From Oscillospiraceae bacterium (GTDB lineage Bacteria; Bacillota; Clostridia; Oscillospirales; Oscillospiraceae), in NCBI GenBank assembly GCA_021771635.1, contig JAETOQ010000001.1, forward strand, positions 62,001-126,000: a stretch of DNA of 64,000 bases, given 5' to 3'. The notes beneath the pieces are model-generated. The model did not search any database and was not told the origin of the DNA. It saw only the letters and a list, made by a program, of their open reading frames with translations. This document shows positions 23,295 to 60,525 of this stretch, in pieces. The translations under genes were made by a program, and so were the position numbers. The stretch's first letter is position 1. The number at the start of each line of letters is the position of its first letter.

Positions 23295-23396
23295 GGCGGC
23301 TCCTCTCTGATTTGCATTCTTTGCATTCTTAGTTAGTATAGCAAATTTCGCGGCAATACGCAACCGAAAAAACGAGCGCCCGAACGGGCGCTCGTT

Positions 23397-23567
23397 CAGC
23401 TTGTCGAAAAAGTCTTTTCGGCAAGCTGCTTAAGATTTCAGAACTTTAAAAAAGTTCTGAAATCTATTGAATCTATTGATTTGAATGGCGCAGGGCACCC
23501 TTCCTGGGTTCCCCGCGCACACCCCTCCTTCCCGTTTTCTTACTCTGCCGGGTTTATTGACAGTCAG
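23397..23567. mobile_element. terminator-flanked element, copy 1
   Basis: flanked by 26-bp near-identical terminator hairpins AACGAGCGCCCGa(a/c)CGGGCGCTCGTT at 23371-23396 and 23568-23593; core shared with 35014 and 60338. Confidence 0.85.
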
Positions 23568-23621
23568 AACGAGCGCCCGACCGGGCGCTCGTTCCCTAAT
23601 ATACACGACCGCTGAACGCCG

Positions 23622-33968: not shown

Positions 33969-34086
33969 CGCCGCCAAAAGAGGACATGTTTTGCATGGTT
34001 TCTAGCACTTATTTTGATTATATTGCATAAAATGATCCTATACAATCATATGCAAAGGGTTATTGGACTGTATAGGAGGTACAGAT

Positions 34087-34986
34087 ATGCGAACACCCAT
34101 TTTCACCGGCTCCGGCGTGGCCATTGTCACACCCTTCAACAACGAGACGGTGGACCTGCCCACCCTGGGCCGGCTCATCGACTTCCAGCTGGAAAACGGC
34201 ACCGACGCCGTCATCGTCTGCGGCACCACCGGCGAGGCCACCACCATGACCTATCACGAGCGGATGCAGACCATCGAGTTCTGCGTGGAGCATGTGAACG
34301 GCCGCGTCCCGGTCATCGCCGGCAGCGGCTCCAACTCCACGGAGGTGTCCACCGCCCTGTCCCGGGATGCGGAGAGAGCTGGGGCGGACGGATTGCTGCT
34401 GGTGACGCCCTATTACAACAAGGCAAGCCAAACGGGCCTGCTCCGCCATTATCAGGTCATCGCCGACGCGGTGGACACCCCCTGCATCCTCTACAACGTG
34501 CCCTCCCGCACCGGCGTCGCCATCGCGCCGGAGACCTACGCCCAGCTTGCCCAGCACCCCAACATCAACGGCGTCAAGGAGGCCTCCGGCAATCTCGGCA
34601 ATATCCAGAGGACGCGAAACCTCTGCCCGGAGGACTTCTCCATCTGGTCCGGCAACGACGACGAGGTGGTTCCCATCTGCGCCCTGGGGGGCGTGGGCGT
34701 CATCTCTGTGGCAGCCAACATCCTCCCCGCCGAGATGCACGCCCTGGTGAAGCTGTGTTTGGACAACGACTTCGCCTCCGCCGGGAAGCTGCAATTGTAC
34801 TTAAAGGACTTCTGCGACGCCATGTTCTGCGAGGTGAACCCCATCCCGGTGAAAACGGCTCTGAACCTGCTGGACTGGAAAGCCGGGGACCTGCGCCTGC
34901 CCCTGTGCCCGCCCAGCGAGGCCAACACAGCGCGCATCCGGCAGACCTTGGTAAAATACGGATTGCTGAAGGCGGAAACGGTATGA
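34087..34986 (+). CDS. dapA: 4-hydroxy-tetrahydrodipicolinate synthase
   Basis: GSGVAIVTPFNNETVDLPTLGRLIDFQLENGTDAVIVCGTTGEATTMTYHE...LLVTPYYNKASQTGLLRHY. Confidence 0.97.
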   Translation: MRTPIFTGSGVAIVTPFNNETVDLPTLGRLIDFQLENGTDAVIVCGTTGEATTMTYHERMQTIEFCVEHVNGRVPVIAGSGSNSTEVSTALSRDAERAGADGLLLVTPYYNKASQTGLLRHYQVIADAVDTPCILYNVPSRTGVAIAPETYAQLAQHPNINGVKEASGNLGNIQRTRNLCPEDFSIWSGNDDEVVPICALGGVGVISVAANILPAEMHALVKLCLDNDFASAGKLQLYLKDFCDAMFCEVNPIPVKTALNLLDWKAGDLRLPLCPPSEANTARIRQTLVKYGLLKAETV

Positions 34987-35013
34987 GAAAAGGGCGGGAG
35001 ATCCCTCCCGCCC

Positions 35014-35178
35014 TCAGCTTGTCGAAAAAAGTTTTTTCGACAAGCTGCTTAAGATTTCAGAACTTTTTAAAAGTTCTGAAATCTGTTGATTTAAATGGCG
35101 CGGGGCACCCTTCCTGGGTTCCCCGCGCACACCCCTCCTTCCCGTTTTCATGCTCTTCCGGGTTTATCGACAGTCTGA
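35014..35178. mobile_element. terminator-flanked element, copy 2
   Basis: flanked by identical AGGGCGGGAGATCCCTCCCGCCCTC hairpins (34991.. and 35178..). Confidence 0.87.
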
Positions 35179-35234
35179 GGGCGGGAGATCCCTCCCGCCC
35201 TCTCTTCCGTTCCGTCGTTCCGTTATTTCGTGCG

Positions 35235-36146
35235 TTATTTCGTGCCCTTGCCAATTACAGGCGAGGCCTGGGTGGTTTCCGCGGAGATGACGACCTTGGT
35301 CACGGCGTCGTCCTTCACGGCGGTGAGGCCGATAGAGAGGTTCTGCTTCAGCGGGTCCGCCCCATCCGTGACGTAGAATGCCCGCTCTGCCGTCTGCCCG
35401 GCGGGAATTTTGATCGTAGTGAACCGCTGGCTCTCGCCGCCTGCCCGGATGGTATAGGGCCGGTCCACCTGCCATTTCACGTCGCAGGAGCTCTCATTTT
35501 TCACTGTGATGACGGTATACTCCCCGTCCGCGCAGTAAATGCCCTCGCTGACGCCGGTCATGGATTCAAACCGGGCGTTATACAGGCTGAACCCCATGCT
35601 GGTGCGGTCCACAGTCTTTGCACTGACCTCCTTGATGGGTCCCGCCGTTGTGCCCAGCTTGGGCGCGGTGGGCATGGCCGCCAGCTCCTGAGCCTTCAGC
35701 TTGTCCATATTTTCCTTGCTTCCGTGGGTGACTGTGATGGTATGGGTCGGCAGGTCCGTAGGGACCGTCTCCCCCTTGTCCAGATCCACCTTCACAAAAT
35801 GAACATCACCTTTATCCTCCGCGATAAAGTTCACGCAGTTGTTGGCACTGTCCCAGGAGGGCGCCTCGCTCATGTCGAACAGCTCCGCCACCTTCTCCGC
35901 GGCGATGTAGTGGGTGGTGCCACCCTTGGCGTCGGTATAGGTGACGGTGACAGGCACCCGCTCCCCGCTGGCGGCGGTCATGGACACGCCGGGGGCGTAT
36001 TTCTTCCTGCTGAAGACCTCCACGCCCACCTGTCCAAAGCTGGCCCTTCCGTTGAAGGTCCCCGCCGCCATAGCGGGCACCATCAGCGCCATCAACATCA
36101 CCATGGTCAGCGCGCCGCACACAAATGACTTCCAACTGTTTTTCAT
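35235..36146 (-). CDS. secreted protein of unknown function
   Basis: signal peptide MKNSWKSFVCGALTMVMLMALMVPAMAAGTFNGRASFGQ. Confidence 0.7.
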   Translation of the reverse strand: MKNSWKSFVCGALTMVMLMALMVPAMAAGTFNGRASFGQVGVEVFSRKKYAPGVSMTAASGERVPVTVTYTDAKGGTTHYIAAEKVAELFDMSEAPSWDSANNCVNFIAEDKGDVHFVKVDLDKGETVPTDLPTHTITVTHGSKENMDKLKAQELAAMPTAPKLGTTAGPIKEVSAKTVDRTSMGFSLYNARFESMTGVSEGIYCADGEYTVITVKNESSCDVKWQVDRPYTIRAGGESQRFTTIKIPAGQTAERAFYVTDGADPLKQNLSIGLTAVKDDAVTKVVISAETTQASPVIGKGTK

Positions 36147-60242: not shown

Positions 60243-60337
60243 GGGTCCTCCCCCTTTCTTTTGTTACTCCACTCTATGACGGCTCGTCCAGAGGTATGCC
60301 TAAAATTTGGAGAGGGCCGGTCTCCGGGACCGGCCCC

Positions 60338-60465
60338 CAGCTTGTCGAAAAAGCCTTTTCGACAAACTGCTTGAGATTTGAATAGCGCAGGACACCCTTC
60401 CTGGGTTTCCCGCGCACACCCTTCCTTCCCATTTTCCTGATTTTTGGGGTTTATCGACAGCCTGA
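60338..60465. mobile_element. terminator-flanked element, copy 3 (internal hairpin missing)
   Basis: flanked by identical GGGCCGGTCtccggGACCGGCCC hairpins (60314-60336, 60466-60488). Confidence 0.87.
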
Positions 60466-60525
60466 GGGCCGGTCTCCGGGACCGGCCCCCTCTCTGAATC
60501 CTGGAATTCTGTCTGAATCCTGGCT

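Follow-up and report, generated by a model that had tools for sequence, protein, structure and literature searches.

A short multicopy element of an Oscillospiraceae bacterium lies between duplicate copies of terminator hairpins and shares its ends with IS1182-family transposons

The 163-bp element downstream of dapA is a miniature non-autonomous transposon (MITE) that was inserted in the dapA terminator hairpin, and the whole hairpin was copied to both sides of it. It is one of three copies in the 64,000-nucleotide stretch of DNA analyzed here (the window). Very probably, the transposase that moves this MITE in trans is a DDE enzyme of the IS1182 family, which joins the element's ends to the feet of a palindromic hairpin, with gap repair then duplicating the hairpin.

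Hairpin duplications around the element and its relatives

The element (CAGCTTGTCG...CGACAGTCTG) occupies 35015-35177. The dapA terminator hairpin stands on each side of it as an exact 24-bp copy. The hairpin sequence, AGGGCGGGAGATCCCTCCCGCCCT(C), occurs exactly at both 34991-35014(15) and 35178-35201(02), and folded as DNA it has a predicted energy of -12.8 kcal/mol (z -5.8). A preliminary description of this DNA had reported an identical 25-bp repeat flanking a 165-bp core after dapA. The exact repeat, its coordinates and its sequence stand, and the upstream gene is indeed dapA by its TIGR00674 match. The lengths change if the element is taken to be bounded by CAG...CTG, as in its relatives: the duplication is then 24 bp and the element 163 bp, and the 25th base is ambiguous or part of the element. 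The features of the window are as follows.

34063..34986, + strand: dapA, the gene whose terminator is the target (TIGR00674, 332 bits against a cut-off of 206)
34991..35014, + strand: left copy of the target-site duplication (TSD), the dapA terminator hairpin AGGGCGGGAGATCCCTCCCGCCCT (exact repeat; single copy at the empty site of genome G013)
35015..35177, + strand: MITE, 163 bp, with ends CAGCTTGTCGA / TCGACAGTCTG (multicopy; ends common to IS1182-family ISs)
35015..35048, + strand: H1, internal hairpin including the left terminal repeat (alignment and folding)
35052..35085, + strand: H2, internal hairpin, missing from the 127-bp variant, copy 3 (alignment and folding)
35098..35128, + strand: H3, internal hairpin with an invariant ACCC-TTCCT-GGGT apex and a covarying outer stem (6 of 12 pairs with compensatory change)
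35178..35201, + strand: right TSD copy, followed by the T/C tract of the terminator (exact repeat)
23371..23593, + strand: copy 1, hairpins at 23371-23396 and 23568-23593 (26 bp, one mismatch) around a 171-bp element at 23397-23567
60313..60489, + strand: copy 3, hairpins at 60313-60337 and 60465-60489 (25 bp, identical) around a 127-bp element at 60338-60464 that lacks H2

The hairpin sequence is different at each of the three loci, as the preliminary description had stated. Its further statement that the hairpins are identical within each locus applies to copies 2 and 3; in copy 1, one loop base differs (AACGAGCGCCCGAACGGG... / ...GACCGGG...).

A BLAST search of the source assembly (2.8 Mb, 170 contigs) gave 100 matches including sub-matches, which correspond to roughly 30 distinct sites. 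Full-length copies are short (127 to 220 bp), multicopy and without a transposase gene. Where both sides were assembled, nearly all copies lie between two strong local hairpins of 23 to 35 bp that are identical or have few differences. The exceptions, L025, L035, L037, and L038, are decayed, and one flank hairpin or element end is missing. The 127-bp variant (60338-60464, also L028 and L036) lacks exactly H2, apparently through a deletion between short GATTT repeats. At L006, compensatory changes distinguish the stems of the left and right hairpins (AGAGCGG...CCGCTCT versus AGGGCGG...CCGCCCT), which suggests quasi-palindrome correction after duplication. Several source contigs start or stop within the element, and the flanking hairpins pair contig C52 with C80 and C78 with C153; hairpin duplications can thus be used to join contigs broken at the element.

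The MITE was present in 37 of the 99 relatives searched. All carriers belong to the same genus, and the 38 genomes in that search from other families of the order had no copy. At 68 of the 87 element sites readable on both sides, the alignment score of the left flank against the right was at least 30. For mismatched left and right flanks from different loci (2,000 draws), the median score was 14, the 99th percentile was 24, and the highest score was 45. The likeness of the flanks is therefore not due to chance. The compilation of insertion sites that had been proposed as a check on terminator specificity gave terminator-like hairpins with duplication, and the source-genome copies with only one hairpin are cases of truncation or of flank loss.

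Since the hairpins are nearly always present and adjoin the element ends, they might belong to the element itself and be carried as long terminal repeats. The flanks of five source-genome insertions were joined and searched against the genus for empty sites. At the dapA site of G013, a single hairpin, GAAACGGGCGGGAGCTCTCTCCCGCCCTCG, was found with no element. Likewise, G050 has one hairpin at the site of L002 (AAAAAACGGCCAGCCCTCCCGGGCTGGCCGTTTC) and one at the site of L005. This means that the hairpin was there before the insertion, which then duplicated it. As had been proposed, the repeated hairpin is a target-site duplication, not an element end. The empty sites refute the terminal-repeat explanation, which is also at odds with the unrelated hairpin sequences at different loci and with the placement of the hairpins between the A- and T-tracts of the local terminator, and we regard it as extremely unlikely. 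At the site orthologous to L005 (L281, G050:C1:328900-330000), another insertion, of a different kind and composed of nested inverted repeats over about 180 bp, lies immediately upstream of the empty terminator.

IS1182-family elements with matching ends

A transposase with matching TIRs, which the preliminary description had suggested looking for, was found in genomes of the same genus and of other Firmicutes: it belongs to the IS1182 family, and its element has the ends CAGNCTGTCGAAAAAG...TCGACAGNCTG. An intact IS1182 transposase was not found in the source assembly (no PF13751 match and one PF05598 remnant without ends), although this assembly is a draft of 170 contigs, with breaks at repeats. 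A search of the source genome for other right ends likewise found no IS; it found at least one further MITE family, about 235 bp long, whose ends are CAGGCTGTCGAAAAAGGCC... and TTTTTCGACAAGCTG and most copies of which have duplicated terminator hairpins around them. Its loci are L155-L162, and together with L164, which resembles a third MITE type, they lie in contigs of G000 that include C15, C31, C58, C62, C105, C151, C160, C124, and C130.

Within the genus, PF13751 matches were found in 17 of 62 genomes, and in eleven of those loci the end TCGACAGNCTG is followed directly by a hairpin. A complete IS copy of the genus, L075, has a 25-bp palindromic duplication. Most of the genus loci are contig-end or partial copies in which the TSD is unreadable, so a wider collection of 80 loci was drawn from GTDB genomes scanned with one transposase of the genus. 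Among the 47 loci examined for ends, 23 had CAGNCTGT-type ends or a close variant together with a palindromic direct repeat of 21 to 39 bp. The hosts of these 23 ISs are Clostridia MAGs, Anaerotruncus, Gemmiger, Clostridium cadaveris, Sporosarcina, Domibacillus, and Mesobacillus. Four of the transposases matched PF13751 and PF05598 and also NF033551, the IS1182 equivalog, for which their scores were 389 to 464 bits (cut-off 270). Hairpin duplications were also found around ISs of the same type on a Bacillus and a Klebsiella plasmid (L288 and L290). Among the IS1182 members compared, hairpin duplication was confined to the subgroup with CAGNCTGT-type ends; none was found at the more distant ISCfr1 (L292; a 9-bp repeat only) or at the members from Sinorhizobium meliloti (L293) and C. 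pasteurianum (L291).

The MITE ends, CAGCTTGTCGAAAAAG...CGGGTTTATCGACAGTCTG, match the IS ends, CAGNCTGTCGAAAAAG...CCGGGTTTCTCGACAGGCTG, over about 15 to 20 bp at each end. The IS right end nearest to CGGGTTTATCGACAGTCTG is CCGGGTTTCTCGACAGNCTG, from G025 and G039, and G025 contains both the MITE and the IS. The TSD that comprises a whole hairpin is likewise common to the MITE and the autonomous elements. Judged from these sequence matches, IS1182-type transposons with matching ends probably move the MITE in trans.

The shared ends also bear on a retroelement-like or site-specific integration at terminators, in the manner of group IIC introns, which insert beside terminator stem-loops and so occupy the same kind of location. 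The inverted ends of the element are common to DDE ISs, and the target is duplicated here, unlike the targets of group II introns. In addition, a low-threshold Rfam scan of 34900-35300, which covers the element, gave sub-threshold matches only, with no intron family among them. The probability of such an integration appears close to nil.

One feature of the ISs themselves was noted. The IS1182 transposase at L168 (170-1672), from Anaerotruncus, is without a stop codon of its own; the IS ends in ...TCGACAGGCTG, and TGA is completed by the A with which the target hairpin begins. Read-through across the IS end was also seen at L075.

Target geometry, internal hairpins, and the proposed mechanism

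For 76 sites (53 MITE and 23 IS), the target was rebuilt and the dyad of the hairpin was located. Some trends were apparent. First, the TSD is 18 to 39 bp long (median, 26), and its center is within 0.5 bp of the hairpin dyad at 73 of the 76 sites. Second, its ends mostly lie 0 to 3 bp beyond the last G-C pair of the stem. Third, TSD length was correlated with the length of the GC stem (r = 0.49, P = 6e-6 for all 76 sites; r = 0.61, P = 0.002 for the ISs alone), and the correlation was weaker (r = 0.36) when pairs of the A and T tracts were counted in the hairpin. Finally, the flanks are skewed in composition, with 56% A in the six bases before the TSD and 52% T in the six bases after it. At 56 of 62 sites, the hairpin is read into from one flanking gene or from both, and at 28 of 62 it lies between convergent genes; stop codons are often less than 30 bp from the hairpin. 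The target sites thus look like terminators of the bidirectional type. The orientation of the MITE relative to transcription showed no clear bias (16 co-directional versus 12).

Could insertion be untargeted, with terminators simply being the places where intergenic insertions survive and hairpins the usual content of the gaps? The sites are intergenic, the genome is compact, and a hairpin often follows within 30 bp of a stop codon. However, such insertions should be scattered within the intergenic gaps, whereas both boundaries were observed at the hairpin feet, centered on the dyad, which makes this explanation very unlikely. A second possibility is that a DDE transposase prefers terminators and cuts with a long stagger, so that the enzyme and not the hairpin sets the length of the TSD. 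Relatives of IS1202 make duplications of 23 to 29 bp, most TSDs here are 24 to 28 bp, and TSD length follows stem length only moderately (r about 0.5); a stagger on duplex DNA that is flexible within limits may therefore be considered. Against it, the TSD ranges from 18 to 39 bp yet stays centered on the dyad in 73 of 76 cases, and the family with matching ends is IS1182. On balance, a TSD length set by the enzyme is unlikely.

In the mechanism that we favor, an IS1182-family DDE transposase would act in trans on the MITE and join each transposon end to one foot of a strong palindromic hairpin, in most cases that of a transcription terminator. Through gap repair, the hairpin would then be copied on both sides; the TSD would thus correspond to the entire hairpin and be as long as the hairpin happens to be. 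From the geometry alone, the target may be read as an extruded hairpin or a cruciform. The four-way junction of a cruciform would bring both points of attack together whatever the length of the hairpin, and one enzyme geometry could therefore serve varying distances along the DNA. A dyad-centered TSD of 18 to 39 bp between A- and T-tracts is what would be expected from strand transfer at both feet of an extruded hairpin. In this model, the 3' ends attack the 5' feet, which would give duplication, whereas attack on the 3' feet, as proposed for IS1272, would give deletion.

The hairpins within the MITE were analyzed in an alignment of 40 full-length copies. In H1 and H3, 95.9% of the positions were paired, and nine pairs showed compensatory change. 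Both sides of a pair were changed in 56 cells, compared to 17 expected by shuffling and 0 to 11 with slid partners, and a single-sided change that kept a G-U pair was found in one cell only. This near-absence of G-U intermediates favors maintenance as DNA or correction by template switching over selection on RNA, and the alignment thus points to internal hairpins that are maintained in one of the former ways more than by RNA selection. Within 35098-35144, the H3 apex, ACCCTTCCTGGGT, is invariant or almost so, and CTTCCTTCCCG downstream of it is near-invariant; the opposite strand reads as GGAAGG motifs. The motif matched no Rfam family.

Among 65 informative pairs of duplicate hairpins, the loop was inverted between the two copies in about 10 clear cases, for example, GCAGCGAAAGCTGC / GCAGCTTTCGCTGC at L121. 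At L008, L034, L048, L058, L112, L114, L115, L121, L122, L130, and L155, the loops of the two duplicates are exact or near reverse complements of each other. Loop inversion was at first read as a footprint of insertion. The loops of the MITE's own hairpins are likewise inverted between copies, so general template switching at hairpins explains the inversions equally well, and they may reflect this ordinary process rather than a trace of insertion.

A more detailed version of the mechanism is possible rather than probable. The transposase would recognize the extruded hairpin or cruciform and cut it at its feet, so that the hairpin measures the TSD; the MITE hairpins would be kept as DNA structures, with the element perhaps a substrate or decoy of the same enzyme; and loop inversion would be the footprint of a hairpin intermediate.

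Relation to known systems and significance

IS1272 and TnSha1, IS1182-family elements of Staphylococcus, use stem-loops as targets, frequently those of terminators, and show no preference for a primary sequence (PMC4923244, PMC5678879); they share with the present elements both the transposase family and the targeting of stem-loops. The outcome is different: IS1272 deletes the stem-loop (reported in PMC4923244) or replaces it (observed in PMC5678879) without duplication, whereas the whole stem-loop is duplicated at the MITE sites. Duplication of a whole stem-loop appears as a hypothetical pathway b in the scheme of Fig 13 of PMC5678879. The ISMac2 MITEs of Methanosarcina are non-autonomous IS1182 derivatives of similar size, 160 to 169 bp; in the parts of that report consulted, the last repeat sizes are tabulated as 4 and 0 bp for two of these derivatives, and no duplication of terminator hairpins is described (PMC3852290).

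Already known, therefore, are the targeting of palindromes by some IS1182 members (from a review as cited in PMC4923244 and PMC5678879), IS1272 at terminator stem-loops, and IS1182 MITEs in Methanosarcina (PMC3852290). In the open-access literature, no paper was found that describes IS1182 elements duplicating whole terminators; the Siguier reviews or ISfinder may contain such a description. Relative to the open-access literature, what is new is the systematic duplication of whole terminators, its dyad-centered and variable length, and a successful MITE family that uses it, as well as the conserved covarying motif within the MITE.

The 76 measured sites, from several genera, are a large natural data set on the choice of stem-loops by IS1182 transposases, and they display the duplication outcome that was only postulated in earlier work. 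In this gut bacterium, the MITE lands between genes and a terminator hairpin is kept on either side of it, and a high copy number may thus be possible with little harm.
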